From: Diabrotica undecimpunctata
Lineage: Eukaryota; Arthropoda; Insecta; Coleoptera; Chrysomelidae
Length of the DNA stretch: 64,000 bases
Assembly: GCF_040954645.1 (NCBI RefSeq)
Contig: NC_092808.1
Coordinates: forward strand, 20,260,232 to 20,324,231
Direction of reading: 5' to 3'
A program made the translations under genes and the position numbers. Shown in pieces: positions 6,101 to 56,170 of this stretch; the stretch's first letter is position 1, and the number at the start of each line of letters is the position of its first letter. Under the pieces are notes generated by a model. It saw nothing but the letters and a program-made list of their open reading frames with translations, searched no databases and had not been told where the DNA came from.

Positions 6101-8330
6101 TCACAGCATGCTACGATATGATCCATGCATACCTAACAAACATTTGCAAAATGTGCAAAAATATTAGGTTTTTCTTTTCTTGCAGTATTTGCAATTCCCT
6201 CTTTTACCTGGTGGTGGATTAGGTCGGTTTTGTGTCGGCATTCCTGAGTATTTCATAACAGCTTGTCGAATGTTAGAATGTAATCCTGTCGTTGTAGCAC
6301 TTGATTCCAAATAACTTTTTACTAGGTCTCCTTCTAATTTTTTAATAAATTGTTTTCGTTGTTTAGTATATTCCATATTGGGATTATTATGTTTGGTAAT
6401 TACAAAAGCGTTTATACTGGTGATATTTAAGACCCAAATAAAAAATTACAAGTGGCCATCGTTTAGGATTTATAGACACATTGTAAGATGCCATTTTATC
6501 TACAATGTCTACTACATTTGGTATCATTATAGAATAAAATCGATAGCTATCAACCGGTAGAGCAGACAGGATTCCGAAAAGGTTACAGTACAGCGGATCA
6601 TCTTCTTATAGTCAGAACTCTAATAGAGAAAGTAAATGAATATCACTTGAACTTATATATTGGCTTCGTTGATTATAAAAAGGCATTCGACTCCATAGAA
6701 CTTTGGGCAATAGAGAGAGCTATGAACAACTGCAGGATAGACTCCCGATACAGAATGCTCATACACAATATTTACAAGAAAGCTACAATGAAAATACAAA
6801 TTGATGCGAAAACCAAAGCTATACCAATCAACTGAAGAGTTCGCCAGGGAGATGTTATCTTACCAAAGCTATTCACACTAATCCTGAAGACGTGTTCAAA
6901 GACATTAGCTGGGCAGATAAGGGAGTAAATGTTAATGGAAGAAAACTGAGTCATTTAAGATACGCTGATGACATTGTAATATTCGCTACAAGTTTCGAAG
7001 AACTACAGACCATGATGAAGCAACTATTTAAAGCTTCGGAAAAAGTAGGTCTTAAGATGAACTTGGAAAAAACAAAAATAATGACAAATACACCGAACAT
7101 TCCAGAAATAACATTGAACGACATAAATTTAGAAACAGTAAGCGAATACATCTACCTGGGACAGATAATGAAAATTAACAAAGAAAATCAAACTGCCGAA
7201 ATTACCAGAAGAATAAGGTTAGCGTGGACAGGATTTGGAAAACTGAGTTGGATCTTGAAAAGCACTAAAATAGAACAGTATTTGAAAACCAGAATTTACG
7301 ATCAGTGTATCCTCCCTATACTCACGTATGGTTCACAGACGTGGACCACCACGTGGATCACCAAGTCCAATATGGATAAAATAGTAAAAGCACAAAGAGC
7401 GATGGAAAGATCAATGCTCGGGGTGAGACATATAGACAAAAAAACAAACAAATGGATTAGAAGCAAAACCAAAGTAAAAGACGCAGGAGAACATGCTGCC
7501 AAATTAAAATGGAGCTTCGCAGGACACAATGCCCGACTGAAGGACAAGAGATGGAACCACGAAATACAACAGTGGAGGCCATGGTTAGGAAAGAGAAGCA
7601 GAGGAAGACCACAAATAAGATGGGCTGATGACATTAAGAAGATCGGAGGACACAACTGGAAGCAAGTGGCCCAAAATAGAAAACACTGGATTGATTTGGG
7701 GGAGGCCTATGTCCAAAGTTGGATTACTTAACGCTGAAGAAGCAGAAGATAGAATAAAATCATGGCTTCTTGCGAGTTTCGTCTACTGTATCAATGTGAT
7801 GAAAGGATGAAACTAGTAACACATTTTTATTCTTTTTGGTTACATGCGATATCACCATCATATGTGCTCCAAAACCAAAAACAGAGGAACCTGCAGGGCG
7901 GTCTTTCATATTAGTCATAATTGGGGACCATCGTTTTCTTTGGGGCCGAATCGTACCCACAACCGTTAGCCTGTGTTCTCTTTCCATTCGGATAACAAAG
8001 TTTCAAGTAACAAACCAGCGATCCATCGTAATATTTCTTCCTGTTCCATAGAGAGGTTCACACATCCTTGTAGTAACTGTTGCACATGAATTCTCTACTT
8101 TATATGGTCCAGCAGGTTGTTACACAGCATATATTTCCATATTATTAGTGTAAAATGATTTTGCGTCGACAGTAGCAAATACTTGGTTTGTTTGGAATGC
8201 CCATGCGGAAGCTACACCTTCTCATCGAGAGTTACTTAGTCAGCAACGGTATAACAAGATTGACTGTTTTTTACAAATTGAGGGGGCCTTGTAACTGGCT
8301 ACCTACATTCGAGGGTTGGAAATCTTTTGA
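6101..8330 (-). pseudogene. piggyBac-family transposase relic, split by a LINE
   Basis: TTAA-specific DNA transposase relic in two blocks: N-terminal/central part at 8330-7749 and C-terminal part at 6541-6101. Upstream block: VTLDEKV (equivalent of the 'TIDE' acidic motif), RRCSFRMGIPNKPS, a shifted frame with AKSFYTNNMEIYAV and QPAGPYKVE, then RMCEPLYGTGRNITMDRWFV (the second catalytic Asp), REHRLTVVGTIRP, SSVFGFGAHM and KKNKNVLLVSSFHH. Downstream block: FYNDTK, VVDIVDKMASYNVSINPKRW, NAFVITKHNNPN, FIKKLEGDLVKSYL, then the cysteine-rich tail GNCKYCKKRKT-stop-YFCTFCK. It carries several frameshifts and stops, so it is inactive. The break coincides exactly with a 13-bp duplication flanking a LINE (6542-7748). 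Confidence 0.9.
6542..7748 (+). mobile_element. 5'-truncated LINE inserted in piggyBac, 13-bp target duplication
   Basis: Non-LTR retrotransposon fragment with ATAGAATAAAATC at both edges (6529-6541 and 7749-7761). Reverse transcriptase motifs in order: EQTGFRKGYSTADHL, GFVDYKKAFDSIE, then after a stop near 6833 VRQGDVI, LSHLRYADDIVIFA (catalytic YADD intact), GLKMNLEKTK, YIYLGQI, ILPILTYGSQTWT, and the C-terminal RGRPQIRWADDIKKIGGHNW...LGEAYVQSW. The style is that of the RTE-like 'endonuclease-reverse transcriptase' proteins of insects. The 279-aa frame from 6892 to 7731 is open. The 3' end is GAAGAAGCAGAAG. The endonuclease domain is absent, as expected for 5' truncation. Confidence 0.92.
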
Positions 8331-16994: not shown

Positions 16995-17790
16995 ATTTTG
17001 TCTTATATCCTTTTTTAACGTTTTATCTTTTTCTTCTTCTTAGAGTCAAAGGTAGGTAACACCAAAAGAGGACGGTAAGTTTTCAGCCCACTCCAACTAA
17101 TCTTTGATTAACTGTTCTTCTTGAGACTATCCTTCCTGTAGCTGCAATTAAAGAATATCTTACTTGATGTACACTCTCCCGTCTATTTCTGAGAGCAAGA
17201 AGTTTAAGATAGCGCAAACCGCAGCCTTATAATATTCTAGGACGTCCAGAACTTCCACCACACCGATAAGTCTCATCATTGGACCACTTCCTCCAAACTC
17301 TTGACATTGGTAATGGATTAGCTTCAAATTTTCCGGAAATTTTTCGTTAACCAAAACCGGTCTCTTTTTGAATGTGAATAAATTTTTGACTATATATTAA
17401 TATTCATATTTGAAAAATATGAATATTAAATTATTATATTACTTTCGTATTATTATTATAGTAATATATTACTTTCGTAATATATTACTCTCGTTTTCTT
17501 TCATATTTCCTAAAATCTCTTTCTTGACCAATCAACTCACTCCAATAAAAAACATAACTTTCTCACTCTTTCTTTCGACCAATCCTCTTCCCGAATTAAT
17601 GAATAAAAATCACGTTGTTATTCCAAAACTAACATTTTTCGCCATATTAACTTTCACTTAGCCCAGAGGACAGAAAACGATATTATTATATCGTTTTCGT
17701 TCACGGCTGCCAAAGCAGGTGGCGCCTCTGTACGCTAACCACTGTAATCGTGAAGTTTTAGGAGACATTCGTTGGACTTTTCGAGTTTGA
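16995..17790. other. No recognised gene; small hairpin at 17399-17427
   Basis: AT-rich interval with a minor TTCTTCTTCTT tract near 17035. A 13-bp-arm palindrome (AATATTCATATTT, loop GAA) lies at 17399-17427. Frames on either strand are not recognisable. Confidence 0.5.
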
Positions 17791-17794
17791 ATTT

Positions 17795-17859
17795 GTATCA
17801 GCCCAAGTGTCTGATGAGGCTGGGATAGGCCGAAATGATTCATAACACTTTATTGATAC
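17795..17859 (+). ncRNA. Type I hammerhead ribozyme (copy A)
   Basis: Self-cleaving RNA motif with every canonical part present. Stem I outer helix GTATCA (17795-17800) pairs with TGATAC (17854-17859); an internal loop follows; stem I inner helix AAGTGT (17805-17810) pairs with ACACTT (17845-17850). The catalytic core is CTGATGA (17811-17817), stem II GGC/GCC (17818-17820 with 17829-17831), then GAAA (17832-17835). Stem III is ATG/CAT with a 3-nt loop (17835-17843). The residue before the scissile bond is A17844 in the context AUA, so cleavage is predicted between 17844 and 17845. The flank CCGATTC is shared with copies at 29.8 and 30.1 kb. Such motifs are known from PLE terminal repeats and retrozymes; a PLE endonuclease relic lies 400 bp downstream. 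Confidence 0.85.
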
Positions 17860-18249
17860 CGATTCGAGCACAAGAAGTTTAACGAATTTGTCCTCCTAGG
17901 TCATATATATTTATCATATAGCAGCTTTTGCTAGAACTTACCAAAACGTAAAAACGGACACTGACCTTAATGAAGTGACAAATAAAAGTTGATATCTGAT
18001 ATCTCATGGTTTACTGTCATTAGTGTGTAATTATTTTTATATGGGCGTATCATTGATGTTTTTGAAAAAGGTAAAGTGGACATATGTTATGACTTTAAGA
18101 GCTTTTTATGGTGTTATATTTATTATTATTTAAATCAGATTGAAATATATTTTATTTAGGTTTTGTGTATCTTTTTTGTCATTTATTGCATTGGAATTAC
18201 TTTTTATTTCTATTGAATCGTGTATCTCCCTCTTATTTTTGTTTTGTTC

Positions 18250-18700
18250 GGTTTTAAAATTTTAGTGTTTTCGAAGTCAAATTTATGCTTCTTCTCATTG
18301 TCATGTTTTGTGAGCGCAGTGACATTGTTCTTGTCATATTTGTGAGAACGAATTCTGGATTGAAGCAGTTGACTGGTTTGCCCGATATATAGACACCTTC
18401 ACAGTTAATACATGGTATCTCGTAAACAACATGTGATTTTTTGAGTTTTGGAGTTTGTGTTTTTAGTTTAGTGAAACATTTGTTTAAAAGGTTGTTGCCT
18501 TTGTGGGCCACTATGATGTTATGTTTGGCTAAAAGATTTGTAAATTGTTCTGATAAACCTTTTATATATGGAAGAGCTGTATAAGTAGTTTTGATACTGC
18601 TGGGTTTATTGTTAATTGTATTGTTGTAAAATTTATTCAGTCTAGATTTGAAAATAGTTTTGATTAGATGTTCGGGATATGCATTCTTAGAAGGGCATTT
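18250..18700 (-). pseudogene. Penelope-like element: RT end and GIY-YIG endonuclease relic
   Basis: Minus-strand reading: YPEHLIKTIFKSRLNKF, PYIKGLSEQFTNLLAKHNII, AHKGNNLLNKCFTKLK, then HVVYEIPCINCEGVYISG, the start of a GIY-YIG endonuclease with its two cysteines. This pairing of RT C-terminus with GIY-YIG defines PLEs. The downstream part of the endonuclease is frameshifted or divergent. It is 5'-truncated near 18700, where the text stops abruptly. Confidence 0.82.
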
Positions 18701-18714
18701 TTTGCTTTTTTATT

Positions 18715-30099: not shown

Positions 30100-31080
30100 A
30101 AATTCAAAAACAGAACACAAGGATAGCTACTTGAGTTAAAATATAGCAAAAATGTATCCATTTTGTGGCTGTAATGTCAGAAGACCCTGATTGCGAGAGC
30201 AACAGCTAACACAACCATGAAGAAATCTATAGCTATCTGAGAATCGGAATGCCAAAATGTTTAGAACATTTTTATAATAAAAAGAAACAAATAATTAATA
30301 CGAGTAAATAACACAAAAAAGGTGAGGAGTACTGGCATAACTTGCAATGAGAATAAAACAAAAAAGGATATGAATTCGAATAATAATAGAAAAGAAGTTA
30401 ATAAAAAGACAAAATGAAGATTTGGATTTAATTTATTTGAGATTAATTTGATACAACTTGCGCAATATGGGAAGCTTATGTCTGCTAGATGACGCGAAAC
30501 GTTAAAGGATGTTGGTAATTGTATTCAAAAAGCAGAAAGCACTGTTGAATTATTAAACATAAATTTAAAAATTTCATGTAAGGATTAGTACATGTATAAG
30601 GTTTGAATTAGTAAAGTATGCAAAAATCCTAAATAGTAAGACACTAAATTTAATTTTAACCTATATAGCAAATATTTTCGACAACTTCAGTGGTTTACCT
30701 GGAAATAAAAGGGCATCGATCCTTCTCGGTACTGCCCAATTTGATGCCCAGCGGGTCGCCAATCTTCCTCTGTTAAAAAGTTAATTGTACAATATGGTTT
30801 GCTCTTTTGTTGGAAATTCACAAAAGGATATAGAAAGTATTTGCCACTTAAGCGAAAATAACATAATGCAGAATTTGTAGTCCCTTTCACATCAGGAGGT
30901 TAGAGATTCTATTATCTCTTAATACCACCCATTCACAATATACATACATACATAAACATGAAGAGTATATCGTAGATATTTTTATTTTTAGTGTGTTGAT
31001 TTTAAAGGTGCATTAGAGGAATATATGTGAATTTATAAAAAAAGATTTGAAACCATTGAGATGTAATTACTATTTAAATG
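30100..31080. other. No recognised gene
   Basis: AT-rich. A 67-codon minus frame at 30687-30890 has no recognisable domain. Confidence 0.45.
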
Positions 31081-31084
31081 GGAA

Positions 31085-33060
31085 TAAGCCACAATTAAAG
31101 GTTAAAGTACGTTTATTGACGTTTCAATTTCCACTTCGGAAATCGTGCTCAAAATAAAAACATTAGTAAATTAAACAAATTTTGTTTTTTTGTTACTTGG
31201 TAAAAAATTCTTCTAATAATTTAATTTTATCTGCTTCATTTATATTGATAATTCAGACATAAATTATACATTTTTAAGTAGACGACTTTAAAATGCTATT
31301 GTCAATATTGTTGAGTTGCGTTCCTGGGACGACTTTACTTGTAAGATAGTTCATTCGATTACATGAAATCAACTTTAACTTGAGAATATCCGCCAGAACA
31401 AATCATAGCATGTAATTCGTCTTTAAAAAAACAAACACATGCCATGATGACAGTAAAAATTTCCTGTTAGTGATTCCATAGTAAATTATGAGGGAAAAAC
31501 CAGGAAAAAAACCTCATAATACTATCCCGACATGGTAAGTATTTGGTCGTGCATTTAGTTTACTTTCAATAAACACCAAATTCTGATTTTATATGTTTGT
31601 TATTGAAAAAAAATAAATGATGTATCCTCTATATGTTACCGACTTACTAATACTGGTATTTTCCTTTTAATAACTTCCTTTTTTAATATGGGTAACCAGA
31701 TCCTACTACATTCTGCCGAGGAATTTGCGACACAATTGGTCTCATTTAGCATAATTAGAGCCGCTTCTTTGATTTTTCTCTTTTTACCATCCGATTCTTT
31801 TAGGACTATATTTGAATCATTCCATTGAATCCTATGTTCATTATCCCATGCGTGTTTACATATTTGAGATCTATCAAATTCTCCATTTTGAATATAAGAT
31901 TGATGTTCACTTATTCTAACATTTAATGGCCTTGATGTTTCACCTATATAAAACTGATCGCATTCACAAGGTATTTTATACATGCAATTCTTTGTCCTTT
32001 CTTGTTCATTGTTAGGTTTGGTTTTAGACAAAATAGATCTAAATGTGTTTGTTGTTTTGAATGTTGTTGAAATGTTGAATTTATTTCCTATCCTTTTAAG
32101 TTTTTCTGATAATCCTTTTATGTATGCTACTGTTATTTTCCTCGTATTATTCCTTTTGTATGCTTTAGGATCTCGTTCTAAGTTTCGAATTTTCGTTAGA
32201 ACAAGTAACTTTGGCTCTATCGTATAAGGATTTAATGATTCCCTTTTTAATATTAATATTGTGATTTGATTTGAAATTTAAATATCTGTTGGTATGTGTT
32301 GGTTTTCTATACACCTGAGTCTCATACCCAGTATCGTTCTTAGAGATTAAAATATCCAGGAAAGGTAGTGTGTTATTATATTCCTTTTCCATGGTAAATG
32401 TTATTGTCTCTTCTTAATCGTTTATATCATTCAGGAATGTGTCCAACAATTTTGATTCATGAGGCCATATTCAGATATGGCCATGCATCGTCTACATATC
32501 TCCAGCATACTGTGGGTTTTAAATTTTGTTTAGAAATAATATTTGTTTCAAAATCTTCCATAAATATATCGGCTAATAATGGAGATAAACTAGAGCCCAT
32601 TGCTAGACCAACCAAAATTTTGTTTATAGAATTCATTATTTAATTGAAAATATGTATTATCAGTACATCATGTTAATAACTCCATTATAGCTGATATGTT
32701 TAGTCCTGTTCTAGTTGCCAATGTGTCATCACTCTCTAATTTTGTCTTGACTATATTTAAAGTCTTATCTAATGGCACATTCGTAAATAAACTATTTATG
32801 TCAAAACTTACCAAAGTATTATTTGAATTATATTCAATATTGGATAATTTATTTAAAAAATGTTGTGTATTTTTTATAAATGTGTCATTTTTATTTGCAA
32901 ATGATTGTATAATATTTAATAAAAATTTTTTATAGTTCACTGCAAGGAGAATTCATGATACTACAAATTTGCTAAAGGGGTATATTCGTTTTATGAACTT
33001 TTGGTACTCCATAAAAATGAGGGGTCTTACTGTAATGAGGTGTAATTAATCTTCTCGGAT
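31085..33060 (-). pseudogene. Penelope-like element (RT + GIY-YIG endonuclease), decayed
   Basis: Minus-strand reading from about 33060: LITPHYSKTPHFYGVPKVHK (PLE RT block 'P.FYG.PK.HK'), TLVSFDINSLFTNVPLDKTL, the palm GLAMGSSLSPLLADIF-like text and WRYVDDAWPYL (catalytic YVDD preserved), LPFLDILISKNDTGYETQ and VYRKPTHTNRYLNFKSNHN. It ends with the GIY-YIG endonuclease at 32031-31636: CMYKIPCECDQFYIGETSRP, LNVRISEHQSYIQNG and ICKHAWDNEHRIQW. Open pieces are broken by frameshifts. The 3' end (31085-31180, minus) is a terminal repeat also found at 55.7 kb: GAAGTGGAAATTGAAACGTC and flanks. It is the best PLE in the window and a candidate relative of whatever mobilises the hammerhead repeats. Confidence 0.9.
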
Positions 33061-33098
33061 AACTTGTTAAACAATATTTAAACTTTAAATTAAAAATT

Positions 33099-51350: not shown

Positions 51351-51868
51351 TACTCTTTTGATTGATACCATCATATCATTTTCTTGGTGTTGACTCTCAG
51401 TTTCAGAAAAGCTGATAACCTAGCTCATTTTCATAAATTTCTTCAAATTCATTGTCATTGCAGTTAGCTCAGCTATTGAGGTTTCTTAATCTTTATCATT
51501 CCATTACGTTTTCATCTTATTCTAGCGTCATTTTTTTGTAAAAAGCTATTTTGAAAGTCATCTCTTTCACCCCACTTCATTTTGCCACTGTAATAATTCC
51601 ATCCTTGATAGTGCACGATTTCCAAAACTTTATCCAACAATTCAGATAACTGCCTTAATCTGGAGCCTTCTAAAAATTGCAAGGCATAGCCAGACGTTGA
51701 TAAAGATGTTAATAGAGACATGGGGAATCTAAAATTTGCATTCCACTACATGTCTCCTCAACTAAGCAGAAATCGTTAGCGAATTGGTTTCTTGTACTCA
51801 TACAGAGTAGATCCGAATAAAAATAAAATGAAAAAGACAGTCAAGATTTCATTTCACGTACAAATCGT

Positions 51869-51928
51869 CTATGTATCTGTTTATACGTATTTCGCTTTAA
51901 TAAAGCTCATCAGAACAGTTATTTATAG
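51869..51928 (-). ncRNA. Hammerhead ribozyme, inverted unit
   Basis: Same motif as the forward units on the minus strand. CTGATGA core at 51913-51907, stem II GCTTT/AAAGC, GAAA, stem III with U-A before the scissile bond, inner stem I CTGTT/AACAG. The outer stem I is CTATA against CATAG, one mismatch compared with the forward units. Confidence 0.9.
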
Positions 51929-52112
51929 GCGTTCTCAACGTGAAAATTAATCTTTTCTGTCTTTAGGAAGCAACGATAAAATGGCTTCGAAACGGACGCA
52001 ATAGCGACATCTTATCGTTGCCATTTACCGACATTTATCGTTACCGACATCTCAAGCCATTTTATCGTTGCTTCCTAAAGACAGAAAAAAATAATTTTCA
52101 CGTTGAGAACGC

Positions 52113-52172
52113 CTATGAATAACTGTTCTGATGAGCTTTATTAAAGCGAAATACGTATAAACAGATACATAG
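52113..52172 (+). ncRNA. Type I hammerhead ribozyme, forward unit 1
   Basis: Outer stem I CTATG (52113-52117) with CATAG (52168-52172); internal loop AATAA/ATA; inner stem I CTGTT (52123-52127) with AACAG (52160-52164); core CTGATGA (52128-52134); stem II GCTTT/AAAGC, loop ATT (52135-52147); GAAA (52148-52151); stem III AU/AU closing ACGU (52151-52158); predicted cleavage after A52159. The internal loop in stem I is where natural hammerheads make their stem I-stem II tertiary contact. Confidence 0.95.
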
Positions 52173-52519
52173 ACGATTTGTACGTGAAATGAAATCTTGA
52201 CTGTCTTTTTCATTTTATTTTTATTCGGATCTACTCTGTATGAGTACAAGAAACCAATTCGCTAACGATTTCTGCTTAGTTGAGGAGACATGTCGTGGAA
52301 TGCAAATTTTAGATTCCCCATGTCTCTATTAACATCTTTATCAACGTCTGGCTATGCCTTGCAATTTTTAGAAGGCTCCAGATTAAGGCAGTTATCTGAA
52401 TTGTGTTTCGAAACTATTTTACGGATTTAATATCAGATGTCGCTATTGCGTCCGTTCCGAAGCCATTTTATCGTTGCTTCCTAAAGACAGGAAAAGATTA
52501 ATTTTCACGTTGAGAACGC

Positions 52520-52579
52520 CTATGAATAACTGTTCTGATGAGCTTTATTAAAGCGAAATACGTATAAACAGATACATAG
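52520..52579 (+). ncRNA. Type I hammerhead ribozyme, forward unit 2
   Basis: Identical in all paired and core positions to unit 1; CTGATGA at 52535-52541. Confidence 0.95.
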
Positions 52580-52925
52580 ACGATTTGTACGTGAAATGAA
52601 ATCTTGACTGTCTTTTTCATTTTATTTTTATTCGGATCTACTCTGTATGAGTACAAGAAACCAATTCGCTAACGATTTCTGCTTAGTTGAGGAGACATGT
52701 CGTGGAATGCAAATTTTAGATTCCCCATGCCTCTATTAACATCTTTATCAACGTCTGGCTATGCCTTGCAATTTTTAGAAGGCTCCAGATTAAGGCAGTT
52801 ATCTGAATTGTGTTTCGAAACTATTTTACGGATTTAATATCAGATGTCGCTATTGCGTCCGTTTCGAAGCCATTTTATCGTTGCTTCCTAAAGACAGAAA
52901 AGATTAATTTTCACGTTGAGAACGC

Positions 52926-52985
52926 CTATGGATAATTGTTCTGATGAGCTTTATTAAAGCGAAATACGTATAAACAAATACATAG
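52926..52985 (+). ncRNA. Type I hammerhead ribozyme, forward unit 3 with compensatory change
   Basis: CTGATGA at 52941-52947. Inner stem I is TTGTT (52936-52940) with AACAA (52973-52977). Compared with CTGTT/AACAG elsewhere, the C-G pair has become U-A by changes on both strands of the helix, so pairing is kept. The internal loop also has A to G (GATAA). Confidence 0.95.
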
Positions 52986-53331
52986 ACGATTTGTACGTGA
53001 AATGAAATCTTGACTGTCTTTTTCATTTTATTTTTATTCGGATCTACTCTGTATGAGTACAAGAAACCAATTCGCTAACGATTTCTGCTTAGTTGAGGAG
53101 ACATGTCGTGGAATACAAATTTTAGATTCCACATGTCTCTATTAACATCTTTATCAACGTCTGGCTATGCCTTGCAATTTTTAGAAGGCTCCAGATTAAG
53201 GCAGTTATCTGAATTGTGTTTCGAAACTATTTTACGGATTTAATATCAGATGTCGCTATTGCGTCCGTTTCAAAGCCATTTTATTGTTGCTTCCTAAAGA
53301 CAGAAAATATTAATTTTCACGTTGAGAACGC

Positions 53332-53391
53332 CTATGAATAACTGTTCTGATGAGCTTTATTAAAGCGAAATACGTATAAACAGATACATAG
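53332..53391 (+). ncRNA. Type I hammerhead ribozyme, forward unit 4
   Basis: Identical to unit 1 in paired and core positions; CTGATGA at 53347-53353. The array ends about 60 bp downstream of its predicted cleavage site. Confidence 0.95.
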
Positions 53392-53929
53392 ACGATTTGT
53401 ACGTGAAATGAAATCTTGACTGTCTTTTTCATTTTATTTTTATCCAACAAGTTTATAATATATTCTCTTTGGTAGAGACATCTCACTATCTCAGGAACAC
53501 CCTGATCCATTCCTTCTTTAGTAAAGGCTGTTTATTGTCTCAATAATACCCTGATTCATTGGTTGAGTAATTGATGTAACATGAGCTGGAAAAACAAGAA
53601 CAAAAATTCCGTCTTCAGATCTTAGAGCTGCCTCATTGGGATGAGCACCGGAATTATTCAGAAGAAAAAGCGCCTTTTCTGGCAACTTCTCCTTCTTCAA
53701 ATAAGACTAGTCCAGGAATGAATCTTGTATGGAACCAATGGATATTGTCACAAGATATCTAGACAACTTGCTAGTTAGACAACCAGAAGATTAAAAAGGT
53801 TTTATGTTTCTAAAAAAAGCGAGGATATTTTGACTTTCCAATCACAGTCAGCTTACATCTATGGCTGCCACACGCATTGGCATGACCCAACACTGTTTTT
53901 CGGTCTTTCGGTTCACTTTTTTATATCTC

Positions 53930-54937: not shown

Positions 54938-55734
54938 CAGATAAGAGAAGTTTTTTTAGGGCTTATGTTTAATTCCTCATTTGCATTGTATCTTGAATGA
55001 ATTGAATTTAAAGTTTGTCGAGAAGGTCATATTATAATTTTTTTATACGAAATCATTTTTCCCCTTTGCTCAGGTGTGTATAAAGACAGTTTAGATCAGC
55101 ACCGAAGCCTTTGAAAATGGTATAAAGAGAAGAAGAAAATAGTAACAGAAATTCATTGGAAAAGGAAAACTCATATTATTTTTTTTTTCACCATCAGAAA
55201 GTAATGATTTCAACGAATAAAAAGATCACCGACTTTAAAAAAGCAGTTATTTTGACGTGAGAATTTTCTGCTGCAGATGAGGGTAATTTCTCGATATTAC
55301 ATCAAAAAAATAACAGTGTATTTGGGACATAGAAAGGTAAGTTTTCACCAAATTTCGTGAATACATTTTTTTTGAAGAAAATAAAAATAAAAATTAAAAA
55401 CTCGGTTATTTGAATTTTTCGCATAAATTTTGAGTAAAAAATGAGTGAGAAAAAAATGTAAAAACAAAAGTTGAAGATGTTTTTCTTATCTACAACTATG
55501 CCTTTAAACTTTTTTCCATAGAACTTGCAGCTTTGCCGAAAATCGTGATAAACCATTTTTTACCCTTGGAAACTAAACCCCTTCCACTTTCCGATCTCAG
55601 ATCACCCGTTATCTATTTTTCGTTTAATTTTTGTTATATTTTAGCTTTGGTCTAGTTTTTATCTTCACTTTTTTTAATAGTTACTATATGAACTGTCAAC
55701 AAAAATATACGTTTAAATTTTTTATTAGTAAATT
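54932..55734. other. No recognised gene
   Basis: AT-rich; the short minus frame at 55302-55556 is Phe/Ile/Lys-rich and unrecognised. Confidence 0.45.
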
Positions 55735-55872
55735 AAACAAAAAATTGTTTAATTTACTAATGTTTGTATTTTGAGAACGATTTCCGAAGTGGAAATTGAA
55801 ACGTCAATAAACGTATTTTAACCTTTAATTGTGGCTTTTTCCCATTGTGGATTTTTCCCATTTAAATAGTAA
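55735..55872 (+). repeat. Solo PLE-type terminal repeat
   Basis: Near-copy of the minus-strand 3' end of the 31.1-kb PLE: GTTTAATTTACTAATGTTT, TTTTGAG.ACGATTTCC, GAAGTGGAAATTGAAACGTC, TTTAACCTTTAATTGTGGCT and CCCATTTAAATAGTAATT. The 55.8-kb copy carries a small internal duplication of the TTTTTCCCAT segment. No PLE coding sequence adjoins it. Confidence 0.82.
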
Positions 55873-56170
55873 TTAATTTAAAATGTCACAAGAAAATAGC
55901 TTCAGAAGAATATACGGTGTGTGCATAAAGTGTGGAAACGGTCTATTATCTTATGACTTAAATATTTTCAAAGTTAAAGCTCTAAAAGGTCGATTTTTAT
56001 TTTTATTTTTTAACCTTTTTGGAAAAAAAGTAACTTTTACCCCCACTACCTTAGTAGATGTGACCTCATCGATAATTTTTTAAATAGAAAGGGCATATTT
56101 TTATCTAAAAAATTAAAAGCCCATATTTTTCAGAGTACAACCGTACCAAACTCATCACATTCAAACTTCA
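55873..56170. other. No recognised gene
   Basis: A 66-codon plus frame (55883-56083) is unrecognised. Confidence 0.4.

Follow-up and report, generated by a model that had tools for sequence, protein, structure and literature searches.

Head-to-head retrozyme arrays with paired outer ends in Diabrotica undecimpunctata and their probable insertion by a Penelope-type enzyme

Metazoan non-LTR retrozymes are tandem arrays of non-coding, low-GC units of 150–450 bp that carry type I hammerheads; they are flanked by target duplications of more than 4 bp and lie in genomes that also hold Penelope-like elements (Cervera and de la Pena 2020, PMC7229834). The hammerhead repeats of newt and axolotl, likewise of type I and with a weak palindromic stem III, form units of ~330–350 bp (PMC7229834). 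Plant LTR retrozymes also consist of a non-coding hammerhead unit and are thought to spread by means of a foreign reverse transcriptase (PMC4918200; described in PMC7229834, PMC7761336), but theirs are type III hammerheads, accompanied by LTRs, a tRNA primer site and 4-bp duplications (PMC7229834, PMC7761336). A 2020 review describes animal retrozyme repeats as having no conserved motif that would name an autonomous mobiliser, and regards Penelope-like elements as likely candidates for that role (PMC7761336).

Penelope-like elements themselves occur as inverted copies with duplications of ~8–14 bp, use two internal starts and AT-rich targets, and have both target strands extended (PMC3846280, PMC11167929). 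The purified Penelope protein of the anole, a predicted dimer, cleaves and extends both target strands, begins reverse transcription inside the RNA at two sites and prefers AT-rich targets (PMC11167929).

Here we describe a retrozyme insertion at 51637–53443 of a 64,000-nucleotide stretch of the D. undecimpunctata genome (the window, C6:20260232–20324231; Table 1). The sequence-only reading had taken it for a single tandem array of five type I hammerheads at a constant period of about 406 bp. The period is real (406–407 bp) and all five hammerheads are present, but four are on the plus strand, spaced by 407, 406 and 406 bp, and the fifth is on the minus strand in an inverted copy, so that the supposed single array is in fact a pair of head-to-head arms, the minus one 0.93 unit and the plus one 3.4 units long. 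The flanking direct repeat, put at 10–12 bp by the same reading, is a target duplication of 12 bp whose left copy overlaps the first 4 nt of the minus arm. The surrounding gene-like sequence proved to be the relic of a DDE_1 transposase, and a single reading frame stays open through the joined flanks. The absence of coding capacity also held: the longest stop-to-stop frame fully within the array is 69 codons, and the retrozyme is thus non-autonomous, with neither a reverse transcriptase nor a GIY-YIG nuclease of its own.

Table 1. Features of the insertion and of related elements, in positions of the window.
Feature	Position	Strand	Details
Second retrozyme family copy	17652–17936	+	318-bp unit; hammerhead core 17811
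Decayed Penelope-like element	31064–33088	−	92–94% identical to copy L081
Target duplication, left copy	51629–51640		12 bp, TTTATCCAACAA
Minus arm	51637–52015	−	379 nt; outer end unit position 351, inner end 379; one hammerhead
Minus-arm hammerhead	core start 51913	−	predicted cleavage 51882/51881
Filler between arms	52016–52053		38 bp; 5′ ends of the arms face each other across it
Plus arm	52054–53443	+	3.4 units of 406–407 bp; outer end unit position 171 (site A)
Plus-arm hammerhead 1	52110–52175	+	core 52128, predicted cleavage 52159/52160
Plus-arm hammerhead 2	52517–52582	+	core 52535, predicted cleavage 52566/52567
Plus-arm hammerhead 3	52923–52988	+	core 52941, predicted cleavage 52972/52973
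Plus-arm hammerhead 4	53329–53394	+	core 53347, predicted cleavage 53378/53379
Target duplication, right copy	53439–53450		12 bp, TTTATCCAACAA
DDE_1 transposase relic, host of insertion	53521–53706	−	PF03184, E 8.8e-11; right flank

With a type I hammerhead in all five units, a tandem period within 150–450 bp, a unit GC content of 35.2% (below 45–50%), no coding capacity and a duplication longer than 4 bp, the array has the characters of metazoan non-LTR retrozymes. It differs from them as published in its two head-to-head arms and, as shown below, in two recurrent outer ends; the main text of Cervera and de la Pena uses neither "inverted" nor "orientation" (PMC7229834). Compared with the newt and axolotl repeats the unit is longer (400–406 bp), of other sequence and in an insect host, and compared with plant LTR retrozymes the hammerheads are of type I and the duplications mostly of 12 bp. 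The two arms form inverted repeats of ~350 nt within 51637–52404, and a read-through transcript of this segment would form a long hairpin and might give rise to small RNAs. The window as a whole is dense in relics of mobile elements, with RVT_1 at 6805, 27784, 36410, 53779 and 61982 and DDE_3 at 1621 and 11630.

The hammerheads were sought with a descriptor that calls for the conserved core, a stem II of at least 4 bp, a 5-bp stem I, a short stem III and a cleavage nucleotide other than G. It matches six times in the window, at the five hammerheads of the array and at 17811 in a second retrozyme family, and not at all in 200 dinucleotide shuffles of the window, both strands taken together. The cleavage position 52159/52160 offered by the sequence-only reading is consistent with the motif, the predicted cleavage nucleotide being the A at 52159. 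Covariance scoring, by which that reading would have had the hammerheads judged, went against it: nothing in the 64 kb reached the Rfam gathering score, and the one array copy that matched Hammerhead_3 stayed below threshold (17.8 bits, gathering 48.5; E 2.2). We read this miss as a reflection of a very small stem III and not as absence of the motif, because the descriptor finds the hammerheads but nothing in the shuffles, and because of the pattern of variation across the family (see below). The palindrome AUACGUAU can form 2 bp within one molecule and 8 bp between two, from which we infer that the array hammerheads act as dimers; salamander hammerheads with a weak stem III are reported to cut better in that form (PMC7229834). 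An Rfam match to MIR2630 (102 bits, E 5.4e-21, gathering 144) was rejected, since it spans the head-to-head inverted repeat at 51855–52190 and the model would score any long hairpin. Modelled as a circle, the unit is predicted to adopt a branched fold of −101 kcal/mol, as low as which none of 100 shuffles came.

The unit is not unique to this locus. With up to two mismatches, its 31-nt hammerhead core occurs 1,616 + 1,602 times (~3,218) in the 1.74-Gb assembly, the backward control giving 0, and it has no exact match in viral contigs; a search with the 406-bp unit, in which 40 of 1,925 candidates were scored, gave at least 143 matches in 40 places. There are therefore thousands of dispersed copies. 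We analysed 50 loci, namely all 40 scored unit loci and 10 of the first 15 core clusters on C1 (those left out start at 2564093, 8378899, 9929258, 14493773, which is partly covered as L047, and 15076803); chosen as the closest relatives of the window unit plus the first C1 clusters, they are not a random sample. Units of 400–402 bp occur at other loci. Over 143 unit fragments from the 50 loci, the hammerhead region varies less than the remainder (mean non-majority 0.021 vs. 0.034), and within it only unit position 106, immediately 5′ of the predicted cleavage site, varies strongly: of 120 fragments, 67 have A there, 51 C, one T, one a gap and none G. The exact 37-mer has C at the cleavage nucleotide 744 times genome-wide and G twice. 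Hammerheads must have A, C or U at this nucleotide, and the variation at position 106 fits that requirement, although two founder alleles would produce the same picture.

Exact duplications of at least 9 bp, most often of 12 bp, flank 16 of the 24 two-armed loci, compared with 4 of 552 mispaired flank controls, and together with the thousands of dispersed copies they give good support to the view of the window array as an insect retrozyme copy with a target duplication. The duplication is absent at L063 and at five of the six loci with an atypical outer end (all except the window locus, L070); at L067 it has one mismatch, and at L077 it is 8 bp long.

The two arms have a fixed order. The strand changes from minus to plus in all 24 two-armed loci of the 50-locus set, and likewise in 21 of 21 changes in two listings, one of the first 100 cores and one of C17 on C1 (C17 being the exact-match form with C at the cleavage nucleotide), which together cover 182 copies in 66 clusters. 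The arms also have preferred outer ends, which cluster around unit positions ~170 (site A) and ~377 (site B), 208 nt apart: 40 of 74 outer ends fall in the A interval (150–175), 27 in the B interval (362–390) and 7 elsewhere, so that 67 of 74 belong to one or the other. Wherever both ends of a two-armed locus could be classified (18/18), the pair consists of an A end and a B end, which has a probability of ~2e-6 if the ends are independent. Exceptions are the six of 24 two-armed loci with one end outside A and B (L032, L042, L044, L054, L062, L070), among them the window locus itself with its left end at 351. In two seemingly one-armed loci, L065 and L066, a site-A stretch of ~20 nt can be seen by eye before the second target copy, which points to a very short second arm. 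In the predicted circle, site A is in a single-stranded stretch (156–178) directly 3′ of the hammerhead hairpin (24–155), and site B (368–382) comes after a second long hairpin (197–356).

Satellite DNA, with tandem and inverted copies arising through unequal crossing-over and inversion and scattered by chance, would be expected to have one period per locus, as seen here, and hammerheads do occur in satellites; target duplications, recurrent ends and an exclusive minus-then-plus order are unexpected of it, and we give it almost no credence. The inner ends of the arms bear on another explanation. Only 7 of 74 are in the B interval and none is in the A interval, while 14 lie at unit positions 268–278, where 2 are expected; TTAA near these positions could aid the pairing of cDNA ends, or the RNA there may stall the enzyme. 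Self-priming, in which one cDNA folds back and copies itself into an inverted repeat, has been put forward for the Penelope elements of rotifers on account of palindromes where the inverted copies join (PMC3846280), and the near-equal inner ends of some arrays (58/58 at L074, 53/60 at L071) would suit it. Such a snap-back predicts the same start at both ends, however, whereas A and B differ in 18 of 18, and the inner ends of the two arms are usually far apart (132/274 at L052, 96/372 at L063), which makes this a very improbable origin.

Both arms appear to have been copied from one type of template. Within an arm, units resemble one another more than they resemble those of other loci at 37 of 38 loci, all but L077; between segments of a locus the same holds at 22 of 23, all but L072. 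In the latter comparison both segments of L047 and of L080 lie on the same strand, and L042 contributes a third one that stands apart. The two arms agree in unit length (400, 401 or 402) at all seven listed loci where each arm holds two copies or more. None of the 26 multi-copy clusters among the first 100 listed cores is mixed, C17 matching exactly in every copy or in none; shuffling the allele assignment gives 9.8 mixed clusters on average. The longest listed arm has 13 copies at 402-bp spacing. A circle is the simplest explanation of this shared length, allele and similarity, and a linear multimer or later gene conversion could also have made the arms uniform. The same two-strand insertion might in particular have used a linear multimeric transcript of a genomic array, the hammerhead being dispensable. 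The anole Penelope protein uses RNA with a dead hammerhead in vitro, and the insertion of hammerhead mutants in that assay speaks against a need for the hammerhead in this step (PMC11167929); unequal crossing-over, moreover, could likewise lengthen arms. Given the variable inner ends, linear templates should shrink with each round, and arms of 13 units of a single allele, with one exact period per locus, are better suited to an endless circle; we thus consider a linear template unlikely, if still deserving of attention.

The second retrozyme family, with its 318-bp unit, was searched for across the genome and gave at least 76 matches, 40 of 1,705 candidates having been scored. Its hammerhead has the same core but different stem sequences, which indicates a fold kept with different base pairs. 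Among the 76 matches, opposite-strand neighbours within 1 kb are in minus-then-plus order in 13 of 13 cases. Seven of the eight loci examined are two-armed, and five of these seven have ends at 185 and 234, 49 nt apart; the ends of the other two are unclear (229/171 at L090, 233/92 at L095), and at the eighth locus, L088, a plus-strand match of 22 nt stands 137 bp ahead of the minus arm, in a near-palindromic stretch. An (AT)n run borders at least one side of seven of the eight loci, a hint of target preference. The two retrozyme families are weakly similar in the 24 nt that precede their start sites, to a degree reached by 0.8% of random and 1.7% of AT-rich position pairs.

Penelope-like elements of the same genome repeat the pattern. 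The C-terminal fragment of the decayed element in the window has at least 162 genome matches, 150 of 34,627 candidates having been scored, and one copy, L081, retains an 819-codon frame with RVT_1 whose protein shares 87% identity with one of Diabrotica virgifera and, over nearly its full length, 34% with one of Anolis carolinensis. Neither the window fragment nor the 819-codon frame has a Pfam match to GIY-YIG, and a PDB sequence search gave weak reverse-transcriptase matches only. PF01541 (GIY-YIG) is present in 2 of 120 listed relatives of the L081 protein; besides these, our assignment of the nuclease rests partly on a motif that we take to be characteristic of it. Among the 150 listed matches, opposite-strand neighbours less than 5 kb apart are minus-then-plus in 12 of 12 cases. 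In all six of these pairs examined for their ends, which were picked for short length, one arm ends at reference position ~1305–1310 (site a, after ATTAATTA) and the other ~36 nt further (site b, near CTTCAGAACA). The six have exact duplications of 12, 20, 9, 14, 13 and 9 bp, the longest of which includes microhomology, while mispaired controls gave 0 of 30. Twin priming by LINEs produces inverted left parts, with variable internal starts and one fixed 3′ end. A LINE might have moved the retrozyme in this way, its likeness to Penelope being a coincidence, and RVT_1 relics are frequent in the window; both starts are recurrent here, however, and the Penelope-like elements of the same genome have the same paired ends, so that we hold this to be improbable. 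The a and b ends correspond to the published "tail", which is optional on one inverted pLTR (PMC3846280).

Other observations on these elements concern their sequence. The 10-mer TACAAGAAAC is common to the retrozyme unit and L081, with TTCGGA ~20 nt before it in both (by eye), and is a lead towards a candidate binding motif. A partial tandem copy, offset by 3,030 bp, overlaps the seemingly intact L081; the two share 1,342 nt at 99.8% identity. At 55716–55913 of the window, ~199 bp are 85% identical to the end of the Penelope-like element just before site b, and 18254–18709 (−), beside the second retrozyme, resembles by eye the end of another Penelope-like element, with no Pfam match.

We propose, with a probability of roughly 0.7, that the array is a single insertion of a non-coding retrozyme, made by a Penelope-type enzyme that primed from both target strands on one, probably circular, RNA at two fixed sites. 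Genomic multimers would be transcribed, and the type I hammerheads would cut the RNA into units of ~400–406 nt that would then be ligated into circles. A Penelope-like protein, with its reverse transcriptase and GIY-YIG nuclease, would bind one such RNA and cut an AT-rich target with a stagger of ~12 bp, whereupon both target 3′ ends would prime reverse transcription, each from its own RNA site, A or B. Two reverse transcriptases would circle the same template, sometimes for many laps, so that the left arm would be minus and the right arm plus; the cDNA ends would meet and be joined, and fill-in of the stagger would give the target duplication. Because both 3′ ends would be extended on sense RNA, minus left and plus right is the order to be expected, and it is the only order seen. 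One end of each kind would follow if a dimeric enzyme held site A with one subunit and site B with the other, both on the same RNA. The scheme is similar to what the anole Penelope protein does in vitro (PMC11167929).

Some results count against this mechanism: the six of 24 two-armed loci with an end outside A and B, the two unclear loci of seven in the second family, and L088, L072 and L077. Against the link to Penelope stand the lack of a strict-pattern hammerhead in L081 and a similarity between L081 and the retrozyme unit that is at chance level (best E 0.78). In the anole assay, contrary to the proposed rule, the strands showed no difference in start site, and the sites were adjacent, at 30–40 nt (PMC11167929); such spacing is not general here, the two sites being 208 nt apart in the present family, 49 nt in the second and 36 nt in the Penelope-like element. 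In our reading, a one-of-each rule that acts within one complex could escape a bulk assay. The retrozyme also departs from Penelope-like elements in having no protein, in starts 208 nt apart on a 406-nt unit and in arms of many laps.

Both retrozymes and head-to-head copies of Penelope were known before. What appears to be new is the rule of paired ends in retrozymes, together with its match to the pattern of Penelope-like elements in the same genome: a search by title, by the start of abstracts and by passages, with most subscription papers and preprints outside its scope, found no description of divergent retrozyme arrays with two fixed ends, and passages on Penelope-like elements (PMC3846280, PMC11167929) yielded no statement that one site of each kind is used per insertion. 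A more general proposal is that animal retrozymes live as RNA parasites on Penelope-like elements and that insertion of the Penelope type obeys a one-RNA, two-primer rule, by which a dimeric enzyme holds one RNA (here circular) at two start sites and the target strands are extended from different sites; we rate its chances as about even. Where the 2020 review saw no motif that would name the mobiliser of animal retrozymes, such a signature is now given by the two recurrent ends, by their use one each, and by the return of this pattern in Penelope-like elements of the same genome. The data bear equally on the origin of inverted Penelope copies, for which self-priming was proposed (PMC3846280), and both questions can be tested with one purified protein and one RNA of ~406 nt. 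If the proposal is true, both arms of a new insertion would be primary cDNA of the same molecule, and the one-arm "tail" of Penelope and the divergent arrays of retrozymes would be explained together.
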